DNA from: Actinomycetes bacterium
GTDB taxonomy: Bacteria; Actinomycetota; Actinomycetes; Streptosporangiales; Streptosporangiaceae
Assembly (NCBI GenBank): GCA_021793235.1
Contig: JAJYTD010000027.1
Location: 1 to 55,242, forward strand
Direction: 5' to 3'
Length of the DNA stretch: 55,242 bases
The translations under genes and the position numbers were made by a program. Positions 43,530-49,181 of the stretch are shown one piece after another; the first letter of the stretch is position 1, and the number at the start of each line of letters is the position of its first letter. Under the pieces are notes generated by a model. That model was not told the origin of the DNA. It saw only the letters and a program-made list of their open reading frames with translations, and searched no databases.

Positions 43530-44288
43530 ATGACCGAACGCTTCACCAAATCCACCGCGCTGATCACCGGCGGCGGCAGCGGGATCGGGCGGGCGATCGC
43601 GCTCGCCTTCGCCCGCGAGGGCTCCTCCGTGGTCGTCGCGGGCCGCCGGGCCGAACCGCTTGAGGCCACCGTCAAGCTCATCCGCGACACCGGCGGCACC
43701 GCCTCGGCCGTCACCGCCGACATCACCGACACCGCTGACGCGGAGCGGCTGGTGGCACAAACGGAGCAGCGGTACGGCCCCCTGGACATCGCCGTGAACA
43801 ACGCAGGCATGCTGACCGCCCTGGGGCCCGTCGGTGAGATCGACGTGGAGGAGTGGCGCACCCTACTGGAGGTGAACGTCACCGGTCTGCTGCTGGCGAT
43901 GAAGCACCAGGTCCGCCACATGAAGGGCCGGGGCGGCGCCATCGTGAACGTCTCCTCCAACATCGGCGCGCACATCCGCCTGCCCGGCACGGGGGCCTAC
44001 GCGGCCACAAAGGCAGCGGTCAGCGCGCTGACGCGGACCGCTGCCCTGGAGTACATCGGCGCCGGGGTCCGGATCAACGCGGTCAGTCCGGGCGCCGCGG
44101 ACACGCCCATGTCGCTGCTCCCCGGCGAGACCGAGGAGGAGCGTGCCGCGCGGGTGCGCGAACAGCTCCCCCTCGGCCGGGTCGGCACCGTCGACGAGAT
44201 CGCCGCCGCAGTCCTCTACCTGGCCTCCCCTGAGTCGGGCTATGCGGTCGGCACCGAACTTGTGCTGGACGGCGGCGCCTCGGCTTAG
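43530..44288 (+). CDS. Short-chain dehydrogenase/reductase
   Basis: Classical SDR of 252 residues. The cofactor motif is TGGGSGIG near residue 13, followed by NNAG near residue 90, the catalytic serine in VNVSSNIG, and YAATK with catalytic Tyr and Lys near residue 155. GRR after the second strand suggests NADP(H) use. AAGGAG lies six bases before ATG 43530. It is 53 bases after the MFS gene and probably in the same operon; its substrate is unknown. Confidence 0.92.
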   Translation: MTERFTKSTALITGGGSGIGRAIALAFAREGSSVVVAGRRAEPLEATVKLIRDTGGTASAVTADITDTADAERLVAQTEQRYGPLDIAVNNAGMLTALGPVGEIDVEEWRTLLEVNVTGLLLAMKHQVRHMKGRGGAIVNVSSNIGAHIRLPGTGAYAATKAAVSALTRTAALEYIGAGVRINAVSPGAADTPMSLLPGETEEERAARVREQLPLGRVGTVDEIAAAVLYLASPESGYAVGTELVLDGGASA

Positions 44289-44323: not shown

Positions 44324-44472
44324 GCGGCGCCCGGTGCGCAGGTGACGGATACTTCTCCTTCTTAAGCCCGAAGGTCGGGGCCAACTCGGCCTCCCCTGCT
44401 TTGGGGGTATAGCTGGACAAGATGTCGAGCGCTGGGCTGGTCTCCGCCACCGACCACGGTCTCGGGCGCCGC
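44324..44472 (+). ncRNA. yrlA1: Y RNA-like RNA 1 (YrlA type)
   Basis: Structured RNA of about 149 bases. The ends pair perfectly over 10 bp (44324-44333 GCGGCGCCCG with 44463-44472). A second helix pairs GGTGACGGA (44341-44349) with TCCGCCACC (44443-44451), leaving one A-C mismatch. Inside, AGCCC (44365-44369) pairs with GGGCT (44434-44438), CCCC (44393-44396) with GGGG in a capped stem, and TATAGCTGG resembles the 5' side of a tRNA D-arm. The layout matches RNA 3, with different bases in the same pairs. A possible -10, TATGGC, lies at 44309-44314. Assignment as a Y RNA rests on structure, repeats and the adjacent Ro60 gene. Confidence 0.75.
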
Positions 44473-44492
44473 TTTCCCGCCGCGAAAACCGG

Positions 44493-44521
44493 TTGGCCCC
44501 GATTCCCGATTCCGGTACTTT
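44493..44521 (+). promoter_or_regulatory. Promoter of Y RNA-like RNA 2
   Basis: TTGGCC (44493-44498), 17 bases, TACTTT (44516-44521). The predicted start, about 44528, falls a few bases before the closing stem of RNA 2 at 44532. Confidence 0.6.
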
Positions 44522-44531
44522 ACTCGCGACG

Positions 44532-44642
44532 CACCTCCCGGTGCGCAGGTGACGGGTACTTCTGGTGAACTCACGGGGGTTTCGACGCCCCTAACCCGCC
44601 TCTGGGCGGGGAAGCCGCCACCGCCTCGACCTCGGGAGGGTG
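44532..44642 (+). ncRNA. yrlA2: Y RNA-like RNA 2 (short form)
   Basis: Structured RNA of about 111 bases. Ends: CACCTCCCG (44532-44540) pairs with CGGGAGGGTG (44633-44642) with one bulged G. Second helix: GGTGACGG (44548-44555) with CCGCCACC (44615-44622), again with one A-C mismatch. Inside are a T-arm-like hairpin with TTTCGAC in the loop (GGGG at 44575-44578 and CCCC at 44588-44591) and a capped stem CCCGCC/GGCGGG (44595-44610). The D-arm part seen in RNA 3 is missing. It has its own good promoter at 44493-44521. The box CCCGGTGCGCAGG is shared by all three RNAs. Confidence 0.72.
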
Positions 44643-44660
44643 TTGTGGCAACGTGGTTGC

Positions 44661-44803
44661 GGGCGCCCGGTGCGCAGGCAGCGGATACTTCACCTGTTAA
44701 GTGAGTGGTCGCGGGTTCGAATCCCGTCACCCGCCCTCATGGCGGGTGTAGCTCAGCCTGGCAGAGCACTTCTGTTCCGCCGCCGCTCCGGTCTCGGGCG
44801 CCC
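44661..44803 (+). ncRNA. yrlA3: Y RNA-like RNA 3 with permuted tRNA-like domain
   Basis: Structured RNA of about 143 bases. The ends pair over 9 bp (GGGCGCCCG 44661-44669 with CGGGCGCCC 44795-44803); the second helix pairs GGCAGCGGA (44677-44685) with TCCGCCGCC (44776-44784). The inner domain reads like a tRNA in swapped order: anticodon-stem remnant and variable loop, T-arm with TTCGAAT (44711-44727), acceptor strand CACCCGCC (44728-44735), loop CTCAT, acceptor strand GGCGGGTG (44741-44748), TA, then a D-arm GCTC/GAGC with AGCCTGGCA (44751-44767). The acceptor stem is therefore capped instead of ending in CCA. It ends 60 bases before the Ro60 gene and may be processed from its message. Confidence 0.8.
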
Positions 44804-44863
44804 ATCCGCGTCGGCCGCGCGCTCCTCTCGGTGCCCACCCCCAGATCAGCACAGAGGTGCGCT

Positions 44864-46411
44864 ATGGCCAAGTTCAACCGTGCCGCCCCGGCCCCCCGGG
44901 GCCGCACCTACGAGGGCGCGCCCGGCTACCAGCGCGACGCCCGCACGGAGCTGTTCCTGCTCGCCGTGTCCACCATGGTCGGCGAGCACACCTTCTACGA
45001 GTCCGCCGACGAGCGCGACCAGCGGTTCCGATCGCTGGTGGCACGGCTCGCGGTGGACGACACCGACTGGCTGGCCAACCTGCTGGCCTGGCTGCGCCGG
45101 GAGGCCAACCTGCGCTCGGCGCCGCTGGTGGGCGCGCTGGAGGCGGCCAAGGCACGGCTGGACGCCGGCGCGCACGGCCGCAGCCGGCAGCTCGTCGCCT
45201 CGGTGCTGCGGCGCGCCGACGAGCCCGGGGAGGCGCTGGCCTACTGGATGGGCCGCTATGGCCGGTCCGTGCCCAAGCCCGTCAAGCGAGGCATCGCCGA
45301 TGCGGTGACGCGGCTGTACTCGGAGCGTTCGCTGCTGAAGTACGACACCGACAGCCACGCCTTCCGGTTCGGCGACGTGTGCGACCTGACCCACCCGGTG
45401 GCGCGGGACGCGCGCCAGGGGGCGCTGTTCGCCCACGCCCTGGACCGGCGGCACAAGCGGGGCAACGCGATCCCCGCGGAACTGGCCGTGCTGCGGGCCC
45501 GCGAGGAGCTGATGGCGCTGCCGGTGGCCGAGCGCCGCGCGGTGGTGGAGCGCCCGGACGCGGCCGAGGTGCTTGCCCGCGCCGGTATGACCTGGGAAGC
45601 GCTGGCCGGGTGGCTGCAGGGGCCGATGGACGCGGCCGCGTGGGAGACCGTGCTGCCGTCGATGGGCTACATGGCCCGGCTGCGCAACCTGCGCAACTTC
45701 GACCAGGCCGGGGTCAGTGACGAGACCGCCGAGCGGGTGGCCGCGGAGCTGGCCGACCCCGAGCAGGTGGCGCGCTCCCGGCAGCTGCCGATGCGGTTCC
45801 TGGCCGCCTACCGGGCCGCACCGAGCCTGCGCTGGGGCGCGGCCCTGGAGCGGGCGCTGGGCCACGCGCTGGCGAACGTGCCGGAGTTGGCGGGCCGCAC
45901 CCTGATCCTGGTGGACCAGTCGGGCTCGATGCGCAGTCCGATGTCGCGGCACTCGGAGCTGACCAGCGCCGAGGCCGCCCAGATCTTCGGCGCGGCCCTG
46001 GCGCTGCGCTGCGAGGGCGCCGACCTGGTGCAGTTCGACACCGTCAGCGAACGGGTGCCCGTCCGCCGCGGCGACGCCCTGCTGCGGGTCATCGAGCGCT
46101 TCTGGGGCGGGCGCGGCGGTACGAACACCGCGGCGGCGGTGCGCGAGCACTACCGCGGCCACGACCGCGTGGTCCTGGTCACCGACGAGCAGGCCTGGGC
46201 GGGCCGGCGCGGCGAGGAGCCGACCCGTGCCGTGCCGGCCCGGGTCCCGGTCTACACCTGGAACCTGGTCGGTTACCGCTACGGGCACGGGCCCGCCGGC
46301 AGCGGCAACCGGCACGTCTTCGGCGGGCTGTCCGACGCCGCCTTCCGCATGATCCCGCTGATCGAGAACGGCGAGCAGGGCCGGTGGCCGTGGGAGGCGC
46401 CGCACGGGTAG
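44864..46411 (+). CDS. rsr: TROVE-domain Ro60/Rsr RNA-binding protein
   Basis: Bacterial orthologue of Ro60, a ring-shaped protein that binds Y RNAs and misfolded RNAs and, with polynucleotide phosphorylase, takes part in RNA degradation and stress responses. The 515 residues comprise N-terminal HEAT-like TROVE repeats (RTELFLLAVSTMVGEHTFYE; DTDWLANLLAWLRREANLRS; YWMGRYGRSVPKPVKRGIAD) and a C-terminal von Willebrand A domain with an intact metal site: DQSGSM near residue 350, the threonine in RGGTNTAAA and VTDEQAW. Length is near the usual 520-540. AGAGGT lies eight bases before ATG 44864. Three Y RNA-like genes lie directly upstream in the same direction. Confidence 0.95.
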   Translation: MAKFNRAAPAPRGRTYEGAPGYQRDARTELFLLAVSTMVGEHTFYESADERDQRFRSLVARLAVDDTDWLANLLAWLRREANLRSAPLVGALEAAKARLDAGAHGRSRQLVASVLRRADEPGEALAYWMGRYGRSVPKPVKRGIADAVTRLYSERSLLKYDTDSHAFRFGDVCDLTHPVARDARQGALFAHALDRRHKRGNAIPAELAVLRAREELMALPVAERRAVVERPDAAEVLARAGMTWEALAGWLQGPMDAAAWETVLPSMGYMARLRNLRNFDQAGVSDETAERVAAELADPEQVARSRQLPMRFLAAYRAAPSLRWGAALERALGHALANVPELAGRTLILVDQSGSMRSPMSRHSELTSAEAAQIFGAALALRCEGADLVQFDTVSERVPVRRGDALLRVIERFWGGRGGTNTAAAVREHYRGHDRVVLVTDEQAWAGRRGEEPTRAVPARVPVYTWNLVGYRYGHGPAGSGNRHVFGGLSDAAFRMIPLIENGEQGRWPWEAPHG

Positions 46412-46978: not shown

Positions 46979-47030
46979 GCAGACCGGGGAAGTGCGGCAC
47001 AATGGACATGTCGGCAGTCCTTTTCTCGCC

Positions 47031-47078
47031 GATCTTGACTTTGTGCACGTAAGCGAACACGTGCACAAAGTCAAGATC
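47031..47078. repeat. Palindrome A: 20-bp perfect inverted repeat
   Basis: Arms 47031-47050 and 47059-47078 (GATCTTGACTTTGTGCACGT) with loop AAGCGAAC. A near copy lies at 48159-48224. It starts at the stop codon of the CYTH gene and may end its transcript. Confidence 0.85.
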
Positions 47079-47649
47079 AGCACTGGAGCACAAGGTCCCG
47101 GTACGGAAGCGACACCACCGGGCAGGAGTCCAGGCCCAGTCGGCATTCGATCTCATCAAGCCGACGGATGACCTCTTCCCGGGGCCATGCCGAGACGATT
47201 TCGGTTTCGACGAACGTTCCCACGCCCGTCACCGTGTCCAGAACCACCGTGAGTTCCGGCTGCCGGGGATTCCGGTAGTGGGTTCGCGACTTCTCCACAC
47301 GGGCCAGGAAGACCATGCCGAGAACCTCCAGGAGCCGGTTGGCATGAGCGGCCTGGTCAGCGTCTGCCAACTCCACGTTCGTCTCTTCCTTGGCGATGAC
47401 GCCGGCAACGCTGTGGGTGGAAGGGTTCGAGGCCGGTTTGTAGGTGACTTCGCATCGGCCGTCCCGTTGGCGGACCCGCAGGCACTCGACCGTTTCCCGA
47501 AAGTCGATATCCGGCCTGCTGTAATAGGTGTCCACCTCCGCCATCGAACCCGTGGTGGCGAATCCGAGTTCGCCTAGCCGTGCCCTGAGAGCACCTTGGC
47601 TGCTCAGCGCACGCTTGCGTTCGATCTCGACCAAGGACACCGGGGTCAC
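47077..47649 (-). CDS. CYTH-domain protein (class IV adenylate cyclase/ThTPase-like)
   Basis: Protein of 190 residues with the triphosphate-tunnel fold. The signature ExExK appears at the N-terminus as VEIERKR, followed by VDTYYSRPDIDFRETVECLR and CEVTYKP, and later VVLDTVTGVGTFVETEI. CYTH proteins hydrolyse organic or inorganic triphosphates or, rarely, make cAMP; the substrate here is unknown. GTG 47649 has AGGAG four bases upstream and overlaps the stop of a truncated upstream frame by four bases (GTGA). The arginine-rich extension to 47823 is rejected. Palindrome A lies at its 3' end. Confidence 0.87.
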   Translation of the reverse strand: MTPVSLVEIERKRALSSQGALRARLGELGFATTGSMAEVDTYYSRPDIDFRETVECLRVRQRDGRCEVTYKPASNPSTHSVAGVIAKEETNVELADADQAAHANRLLEVLGMVFLARVEKSRTHYRNPRQPELTVVLDTVTGVGTFVETEIVSAWPREEVIRRLDEIECRLGLDSCPVVSLPYRDLVLQC

Positions 47650-47846: not shown

Positions 47847-48158
47847 GATCTCTGCTGCCCTGCTGGAGTACTCCTACGTTGTCGGTGCCGACCAGTGGGG
47901 ACAGTGGTTCCAGCGGGTTATTCGCCTACCGACCCGCGCGGCCGTGGTGTATGGCGGGCGGCTGGTGTCAGATCAGAACCGCGACCATGTGGTGGGCGAG
48001 GGCGCCTGTGGCGGTGGCCAGGGCGTAGCCGGTGCGGCGCCGGGGTTTGCGGTGGCTGCGCAGGCGGAGCGGATGTGCTCTGCGGTGTTGGCAAAGGCCT
48101 TGCTGGCGCAGAGGACAGCCGTCTCGGCCAGGTCCTCGGCGAGGCCAGATGCTGCTTC
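47847..48158. other. Decayed stretch between palindrome B and the CYTH unit
   Basis: No intact gene. On the minus strand two frames carry protein-like pieces (LAEDLAETAVLCASKAFANT in one, TGYALATATGALAHHMVAVL in another) that could be one gene split by a frameshift, but no start or family is recognisable. Confidence 0.4.
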
Positions 48159-48224
48159 GCGCCGATCTTGACTCTGTGCACGTAAGCGAACGCATTCACA
48201 CGTGCACAGAGTCAAGATCGGCGC
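48159..48224. repeat. Palindrome B: 25-bp perfect inverted repeat
   Basis: Arms 48159-48183 and 48200-48224, loop of 16 bases beginning AAGCGAAC. The inner 20 bases equal palindrome A except for one T-to-C change that is matched by the complementary change in the other arm, keeping full pairing. It lies 24 bases beyond the stop of the frameshifted regulator gene. Confidence 0.85.
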
Positions 48225-48247
48225 AAAGGGGCGGGTGTGGGCGGGTG

Positions 48248-49181
48248 TCAGTCGGTGGCGGTGCGGGCCGGGGCGGTATGGCCGAGGGCAGACGGGTCGG
48301 CGGTGCCGGTGGTTCCGGTGGTGATGGCCCGGCGCGGGCGGGCCTGATCGGCGGCCTCGGCGAGCAGGGCCAGGGAGGCGCCGGCGGGCAGGGCGGCACC
48401 CTGGAGGGTGGCGAACAGGTCGGCGTAACCCTTGATGTGGACGGCGTCGGTGACCAGGTGGCCGGGGCCGCGCGGGCAGGGGATGTAGGCCAGGGTGTGG
48501 CGGGGGGGAGAACGCCAGGGTCCAGAACGCGCCGCGCAGTCCGGGGTGGTGCGGGGTGCCGCTCGGGATGATGTGCACGGTGACGTGGGCGGCCTGGGCG
48601 AGCCGGTGCAGGTGGGCCATCTGGTCGCGCATGATGTCGGGGGTGCCGACGCTGCGGTGCAGGGCGGACTCGTCCAGGACCAGGCAGTGGAACGGCGGGC
48701 CCGAACCGGTGGCCATCAGCCGGGGCAGCCGAGGCCGGTCGGCCACGTGGTAATGGGGTTCCATGGGGCGTTCGGCGGTGTCCAGGGCGTGGGTGTAGTC
48801 CGTGGTCTGGACGTGGTCGGGGATCATCAGCGGAGCGAAGGCCCGAACCTGGGCGGCTTCCCGGCAGATCTCGTTGATGGGCGACCCGGTGCGCACATGG
48901 TGGCTGATATAGACCTGCGCCCAGGCGTCGACGAGCACGCCCTCGGCACCGAACTCGGCATCGAGGATCTCCACCACCCGCCGCCCCGGATCGGCGGCCC
49001 CGGCCTCGACCTGGCCCATGGTGTAGTCCCCGACCACCGCCCGCTCAGCGACCTCGGCAAGAGAAAGGCCCAGCCCCTCCCGCGCCGCCCGTATCCGTGA
49101 CCCGAGCCGAGGCCAGTCCGAGTGGGCAGAGTCCGGGGGTTCATTGCCCGCCCTTACCTGTGCCTGACGACGTGCAGCCAT
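48248..49181 (-). pseudogene. Frameshifted helix-turn-helix regulator (XRE/DUF5753)
   Basis: XRE-type regulator of the actinomycete group with a DUF5753 effector domain. The N-terminal helix-turn-helix is RIRAAREGLGLSLAEVAERA, then VVGDYTMGQVEAG, and the DUF5753 part includes LMIPDHVQTTDYTHALDTAE and PFHCLVLDESALHRSVGTPD, up to LRGAFWTLAF. There a run of seven G (48492-48498) shifts the frame; the other frame continues with TLAYIPCPRGPGHLV and HIKGYADLFATLQG to a stop at 48248. Removing one base would give a normal 310-residue protein. ATG 49181 follows GGGAGG. Either a recent pseudogene, a sequencing slip or a phase-variable tract. Divergent from a second such regulator. Confidence 0.82.

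Follow-up and report, generated by a model that had tools for sequence, protein, structure and literature searches.

Three predicted Y RNAs with one type of Ro60-binding stem and three different heads upstream of an actinomycete Ro60 gene

The Ro60 locus and its three RNA units

The window analyzed here is a stretch of 55,242 nucleotides, one of the contigs (JAJYTD010000027.1, assembly GCA_021793235.1) of a 4.8-Mb genome of an actinomycete belonging to Streptosporangiaceae. In this window, a short-chain dehydrogenase gene (43530–44288) is followed, in order, by three RNA units, RNA1 (44324–44472), RNA2 (44534–44639) and RNA3 (44661–44803), and by a TROVE open reading frame (44864–46411); the three units and this frame are all on the plus strand. 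The frame is rsr, coding for a Ro60 orthologue that has a TROVE domain (Pfam, E = 2.3e-14) and a vWA part with DQSGSM. The solved structures nearest to its product are the TROVE proteins 9l5y and 9kop (E = 1.5e-31), and the closest named relative in terms of Ro60 is Nocardiopsaceae bacterium YIM 96095 (85%). The end of RNA3 and the start codon of rsr are separated by about 60–61 nt. As judged from their sequences, the three units are Y RNA genes beside the Ro60 gene, which have a common Ro-binding module and differing heads.

A previous inspection of this region (the sequence-only reading) had pointed out three units sharing a box upstream of a Ro60 gene, and this was borne out: the region before the TROVE gene contains three copies of the box CCCGGTGCGCAGG (also given as CGGTGCGCAG), one per unit, and every unit has a closing helix of its own. 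The closing helices, as determined by script, are 11 bp long in RNA1 (44324–44334 with 44462–44472), 8 bp in RNA2 (44534–44541 with 44632–44639), and 10 bp in RNA3 (44661–44670 with 44794–44803). Complementary ends are therefore present in all units, as had been described, but not with the lengths given then (10 bp, 9 bp plus a bulge, and 9 bp). A G-U pair is located at the inner end of all three closing helices. The second helix with one A-C mismatch was also found again in every unit: it is formed by GGTGACGG and CCGCCACC in RNA1 and RNA2, and by GGCAGCGG and CCGCCGCC in RNA3. The z-scores of the folds were −2.38, −1.52, and −2.31 for RNA1, RNA2, and RNA3, respectively; RNA2 is weak in fold energy, and 14 of 200 shuffled sequences fold equally well.

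Comparison with covariance models had been suggested as a check. The Rfam model of YrlA (RF02553) matches only RNA3 among the units, and the score (42.6 bits, E = 6.5e-7) is below the curated cut-off of 69. Therefore, the Ro60 loci of relatives were collected, and a covariance model, R1, was constructed from 60 tRNA-like units of these relatives, with nothing taken from the window. This model matches all three units: RNA3 with 135.5 bits (E = 3.8e-28), RNA1 with 66.7 bits (E = 4.9e-13), and RNA2 with 44.7 bits (E = 3.4e-8), the last through the Ro-binding module. The next-best place in the window had 10.5 bits (E = 1.1), and we regard the three independent matches as the decisive sign that the units exceed chance. 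The consensus of the 60 aligned units comprises 36 pairs, 22 of which have changes on both sides; the helices of this tRNA-like class covary in relatives. The Ro-binding module of RNA3 consists of the 10-bp closing stem, the box CGGUGCGCAG, and a 3′ CUCGG, and its helices covary in the 60 relatives; the same box, the 3′ CUCGG, and closing stems of highly variable sequence are found again upstream of most of the Ro60 loci collected.

Three different heads

In the following, "closed" refers to a unit with its own anticodon hairpin, and "open" to a unit in which the anticodon stem is instead formed across and continues into the Ro-binding stem. RNA3 is predicted to be a YrlA-type RNA of the closed form, in which a complete permuted tRNA fold is placed on the Ro-binding stem. 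The part that follows the conserved UACUUC and precedes the T arm is UUCAC-CUGUUAA-GUGAG-UGGUC: a stem of 5 bp, a loop of 7 nt, and a variable loop of 5 nt, the same dimensions as in tRNA-Asn. The anticodon arm (44689–44705; stem UUCAC/GUGAG) has the loop CUGUUAA at 44694–44700 with the anticodon GUU at 44696–44698. It is followed by the variable region UGGUC (44706–44710), the T arm GCGGG UUCGAAU CCCGU (44711–44727; found by Rfam YrlA, the fold, and the R1 alignment), an acceptor-like stem that is closed by a 5-nt loop and has no free CCA end (44728–44748), and the D arm GCUC AGCCUGGCA GAGC (44751–44767), the last two being found by the fold and R1. The head is attached to the Ro-binding stem at the junction of the D and anticodon arms.

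Several observations bear on the nature of RNA3. The unconstrained minimum free energy fold contains the three inner pairs and the 7-nt loop of the anticodon hairpin, together with the T, acceptor, and D arms. ARAGORN calls a tRNA-Asn(gtt) at 44660–44736, within RNA3. This call and the Rfam YrlA match point to a tRNA mimic. The sequence-only reading had overlooked this mimicry and the complete anticodon arm of RNA3; it had proposed the inner stem AAGT/ACTT, which is possible but weaker than the local UUCAC/GUGAG (4 versus 5 pairs). RNA3 shares with YrlA the adjacency to a Ro60/TROVE gene, a Ro-binding stem made from the two ends with internal boxes, and the order of T arm, closed acceptor, and D arm. 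However, its anticodon stem is not open and does not pass into the Ro-binding stem as it does in the Rfam form, and hence RNA3 is regarded as a YrlA variant. Its score below the Rfam cut-off concerns a convention rather than a biological feature. The features of a tRNA, namely a free acceptor end and recognition by a tRNA model, are absent; since the acceptor is closed by a loop, such RNAs could not be charged like tRNAs.

RNA1 would be an open tRNA-like unit with a degenerate tRNA-like domain. Its inner stem AGCCC/GGGCT, which had been noticed previously, is present as the anticodon stem (44365–44369 with 44434–44438). Because this stem is formed across and leads into the Ro-binding stem, RNA1 should have no anticodon loop. 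The T-like arm GGGGC-CAACUCG-GCCUC (44377–44393) retains the geometry of 5 bp and 7 nt and has lost the UUCRA loop, and the D-like hairpin is devoid of GG. RNA1 does not show the YrlA head with a UUCRA T-loop and a D arm, and it was classified as a worn relative. Its middle part (unit bases 44–91) has no match among 250 genomes of the family except for its own genome. The possibility that the head of RNA1 represents an old conserved type was dropped, as only its Ro-binding ends match other genomes.

RNA2 is composed of the Ro-binding stem and three hairpins (44565–44574, 44575–44592, and 44595–44610), which are closed by CUUC/GAAG. It has neither a D arm nor an acceptor of the tRNA type, and the R1 match skips the head; without a tRNA-like head, it was classified as a short Y RNA rather than as YrlA. 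The layout is repeated in six relatives (six loci) aligned with it, and 5 of 33 predicted pairs have changes on both sides. The claim that the inner modules differ among the three units thus held, and the three heads are distinct.

The arrays and the anticodon-loop frame in relatives

Of the 250 family genomes, 87 contained a Ro60 match; the best 30 of these matches and 40 loci from a scan of named genomes were combined, and 67 loci including that of the window were left after three duplicates (L005, L014, and L017) had been dropped. R1 gave 187 matches at E ≤ 0.01 over these loci, a number that is a census and not a test, as most of the model-building units are among them. All 67 loci have at least one unit, 60 have at least two, and 33 have at least three, with up to six in Nocardia. 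Arrays are thus the rule beside this Ro60, and the opinion that a triple array is unusual had to be abandoned. When a locus has two classed tRNA-like units, one is closed and the other is open in 19 of 25 cases (5 of 8 in the first set, 9 of 11 with a known box in the later set, and 5 of 6 in the family f3, which we take to be Streptomycetaceae). In the window, the array is composed of the open RNA1, whose T-loop is lost, the short RNA2, and the closed RNA3.

A second Ro60 clade, with about 25–28% identity to the Ro60 of the window and with TROVE and vWA_Ro60 in 5 of 5 proteins, was also found. Its loci (L113, L114, L115, L122, and L123) have their own arrays of two or three units with a different Ro-binding box, GGGUCGAAG. 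Closed and open units occur together in L113, L122, and L123, and a tie and an open unit in L114.

Many R1 matches near E = 1e-7, mostly covering model positions 31–113, look like tandem tRNA genes. The genome-wide R1 tallies (169 of 250 family genomes at E ≤ 0.01; 14 of 396 phylum genomes and 245 of 297 f3 genomes at E ≤ 1e-6) were accordingly not used as counts of Y RNA carriers. As judged from the low figure for the phylum, arrays are uncommon in the phylum at large and common only beside Ro60 genes. A second YrlA match in the genome under study (contig C12) was rejected as a Y RNA and is a tandem pair of tRNA-Gly genes. In Virgisporangium (L064:3104–3635), five tRNA genes are located directly upstream of the Y RNA array, and ARAGORN calls the closed unit there tRNA-Met.

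Of 138 units found by script, three are those of the window, and 60 units of relatives that have T and D arms and a length of at least 125 constitute the set A1; 35 short units and 40 others were left out of the comparison between closed and open forms. Sixty-one units with T and D arms were classed by pairing alone, the loop sequence being unused: 40 were closed, 14 open, 3 ties, and 4 neither. Full stems with 5 of 5 pairs were found in 22 cases for the closed form and in 13 for the open form, while shuffled partners gave on average 4.1 (highest value in 2000 shuffles, 10) and 2.0 (highest, 7), respectively. The motif YUNNNRA was found in 36 of the 40 closed loops and in none of the seven open units having a 7-mer at that place.

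The loops of two other sets were compared as well. In the later set, which comes from 38 loci, no unit repeats a first-set unit exactly when 60 nt from the T stem are compared. Seven of its units had no known box and were excluded: those of L136, L137, L138, and L148 are presumably tandem tRNAs, and L134 (twice) and L135 are regarded as uncertain. One unit of L114 was put under box A by its pattern despite the second-clade Ro60. In this set, YUNNNRA was found in 14 of 18 and 4 of 4 loops classed as closed or tie, versus 3 of 11 and 0 of 4 classed as open or neither. In f3, the motif was present in 12 of the 13 loops of closed units and in 2 of the 19 of open units; both motif-bearing open units have the loop CUGUCAA and were called open merely by tie-break.

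The position of the motif was examined without selection by pairing: in all tRNA-like units with a Ro box, 18 offsets upstream of the T stem were searched for YUNNNRA. One tandem tRNA (L151) was removed from the original 132 units, 78 of which had the motif. In the remaining 131 units, it occurs at the tRNA register in 77 and, with a 4-nt variable loop, in a further 8, while each of the 16 other offsets gave 0–3 occurrences. For distinct 24-mers, the register value was 65 of 113. The motif and the stem are associated (Fisher p = 3e-14).

Three further features were found in the arms. One is that the anticodon stem is paired in 92.6% of the cells in 43 distinct arms, that 4 of its 5 pairs have changes on both sides, and that the covariation score of the two helices together is 0.454 versus 0.189 for shuffled data, although the rows of this alignment were picked for pairing and the result leans towards structure. 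Another is that, among 48 distinct arms, U33 is present in 46 and A38 in 45, while positions 34–36 have entropies of 1.7 to 1.9 bits. The last is that base 37 follows base 36, as is seen in decoding tRNAs: U36 is followed by A in 19 of 21 distinct arms, and G36 by G in 14 of 17 (p = 7.5e-6), the rule being modest when distinct loops are counted (8 of 10 and 11 of 14; p = 0.011). The f3 units sharing the stem UUCCA/UGGGG carry GUC, GCU, GAU, CAU, CUU, and GUU loops, which suggests that the triplet drifts while the frame stays. Some units (L009, L011, L015, L020, L039, L043, and L045) have another kind of D arm (GUCUAGCGGCCCAGGAC and similar). The D arms of this kind may resemble that of tRNA-Glu, as if different tRNAs had been copied.

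Ro60 proteins were also matched in 96 phage records, and nine actinophage loci, one plasmid, and eight loci outside the phylum were inspected. The Rhodococcus plasmid has the canonical loop in both of its units. R1 matches in VanLee, Alone3, GiJojo, and Frankenweenie contain or overlap genes that carry the GenBank labels tRNA-Arg(tct), tRNA-Ser(gct), tRNA-Arg(cct), and tRNA-Pro(tgg). The annotated tRNA genes of VanLee (L219:2138–2209), Alone3 (L216:2274–2347), GiJojo (L214:2269–2343), and the Brevundimonas phage Kikimora (L230:1269–1343) are located inside Y RNA units next to the Ro gene; their names are probably wrong. Outside the phylum, clear closed arms were found in the Caulobacter phage CcrPW, the Xanthomonas phage Usaquen, and Kikimora, where the unit is annotated as tRNA-Ser; in the latter two, the closed unit is located beside an open one. 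The closed form is thus not confined to one phylum. The Rhizobium and Methylosinus plasmids have only 3-pair hairpin versions at the position of the arm, and no unit was found by script in the Thermus and Pseudomonas loci. In these plasmids (L225, L226, and L231), rtcR, rsr, and rtcB stand side by side, and YrlA, scoring below the Rfam cut-off, lies downstream of rsr.

Downstream of rsr in the window, two nearly identical long palindromes (GCCGATCTTGACTYTGTGCACGTAAGCG...) were found at 47019–47095 and 48154–48230, and they are possibly a small mobile or repeat element. The miRNA-like Rfam matches at 47022–47091 and 48154–48229 were dismissed as fortuitous, being due to perfect palindromes. An HTH_31/DUF5753 gene (47973–49178, minus strand) appears to be disrupted near its end by the second palindrome.

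Interpretation and comparison with known systems

The best explanation, to which we assign a probability of roughly 0.85, is that this Ro60 locus encodes three Y RNAs with one type of Ro60-binding stem and three different heads: RNA3 would be a closed, four-arm tRNA mimic, RNA1 a worn open YrlA, and RNA2 a short form. The array, the common module, the two tRNA-like topologies, and the conserved loop frame with a changing anticodon are established at the level of sequence and predicted structure. Each RNA would most probably bind the Ro60 ring with its stem and tether, with its head, a partner different from those of the others. The closed head would display the surface of an anticodon loop, and its partner would then probably be a factor that reads anticodon loops, such as a loop-modifying enzyme or an anticodon nuclease for which the RNA acts as a decoy; this is the simplest guess. 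The open head may act like the known YrlA, for which the PNPase tether of D. radiodurans would serve as a model.

Some of the results weigh against this explanation. RNA3 is also able to form the 4-bp open pairing. The inner module of RNA1 has no relatives here, so that its helices are not supported by covariation, and the inner hairpins of RNA2 covary weakly. The closed arm is not universal, 14 of the 61 first-set units being open and four neither, and the canonical loop is rare in the nine actinophage loci, where 2 of 19 units have the motif. The selection of rows in the 43-arm alignment and the modest 36/37 rule on distinct loops must be added, and f3, which has no G36, cannot test that rule. 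Finally, a promoter and terminator scan of the array region found none; a candidate promoter spotted by eye before RNA2 (TTGGCC-17-TACTTT) was discarded, as the scan gave no promoter.

The anticodon-like arm might be a useless leftover of repeated descent from tRNA genes, for example from tandem pairs, in which the 3′ and 5′ halves stand in this order. Tandem tRNA genes do match the YrlA and R1 models, the loops resemble those of real isoacceptors, and the D arms of some units may be similar to those of tRNA-Glu or tRNA-Gln. However, the 5′ strand of the stem belongs to the conserved Y RNA sequence UACUUC and not to a tRNA, the stem is kept paired through both-side changes, and the frame is constant in two Ro60 clades while positions 34–36 change among close relatives with the same stem. 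This explanation is considered doubtful. It is also unlikely that the arm merely stabilizes the fold or keeps the head at a distance from Ro60, with the loop being a generally stable 7-nt loop: open units in the same arrays manage without the arm, as such a role would allow, but a spacer would need neither the near-constancy of U33 and A38 nor the tie between bases 37 and 36.

It is very unlikely that the three units form one long structured leader (an attenuator or a riboswitch) controlling rsr. The close spacing and the absence of promoters and terminators between the units in the scan would suit it, but each unit has its own closing helix, the number and order of units vary among relatives, and Y RNAs known in other bacteria are separate RNAs. 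That RNA3 is an ordinary or decayed tRNA-Asn gene is scarcely credible in spite of the ARAGORN call and the tRNA labels of such units in phage records, because RF00005 makes 59 calls in this genome and none here, a normal tRNA-Asn(gtt) is present elsewhere in the genome, the acceptor is closed by a loop and followed by the D arm with the whole unit fitting R1, and the anticodon differs among related species while the frame is kept.

Within the explanation of three Y RNAs with different heads, we tentatively propose that bacterial Ro60 arrays may display interchangeable anticodon loops as decoys or sensors in a contest against anticodon nucleases or enzymes that modify such loops, that the open YrlA would be the other arm of the ribonucleoprotein, and that Ro60-carrying phages would be part of the contest. 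This proposal, which is far from assured, comes from the combination of a constant frame (U33, a purine at 37 matched to 36, and A38) with an anticodon that changes rapidly from one species to the next. If about two-thirds of the tRNA-like units (85 of 131) carry a real anticodon loop, the search for the partner narrows to readers of anticodon loops, and the closed/open pair in one array provides a built-in control. The closed arm would also explain why tRNA finders and phage annotations call some of these Y RNAs tRNAs.

In comparison with YrlA as described in RF02553, RNA3 has in common the location by a Ro60 gene, the stem formed from both ends, and the permuted head of T arm, closed acceptor, and D arm; RNA1 shares these by geometry. 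The Rfam consensus, however, has an open anticodon stem running into the Ro-binding stem, whereas RNA3 has a closed arm with a 7-nt loop, and in comparable units the Rfam alignment treats this arm as an insertion. The closed form with an anticodon loop is thus not described by the public model. All 29 YrlA rows in 22 loci, including those of the window and of the Rhizobium plasmids with RtcR, rsr, and RtcB, are below 69 bits, and R1 finds arrays left out by this cut-off. Our literature searches, which did not cover the primary YrlA papers, found no paper describing an anticodon arm in Y RNAs.

The Salmonella rsr-yrlBA-rtcBA operon, as outlined in PMC7790460, has two differently built Y RNAs, YrlA and YrlB, beside one Ro60 gene. 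Several Y RNAs per Ro60 are found in both cases, but the locus in the window has no rtcBA neighbour, its array lies upstream of rsr, and the arrays of the relatives consist of two YrlA topologies and short forms, with up to six units in Nocardia. In RYPER of D. radiodurans (Rsr, Y RNA, and PNPase), according to the accounts in PMC8394870 and PMC8058203, the Y RNA tethers the exoribonuclease PNPase to the Ro60 ring. A Ro60 ring with a Y RNA tether is the working model for RNAs of this type, and binding of PNPase by those of the present locus would follow by analogy; PNPase and RtcB are both encoded in the genome. Permuted tRNA genes and tmRNA have reversed tRNA halves or a partial tRNA fold, as does RNA3. 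Unlike the products of permuted tRNA genes, RNA3, judging by its sequence, would not be cut to a CCA-ended tRNA, and its stem would bind Ro60.

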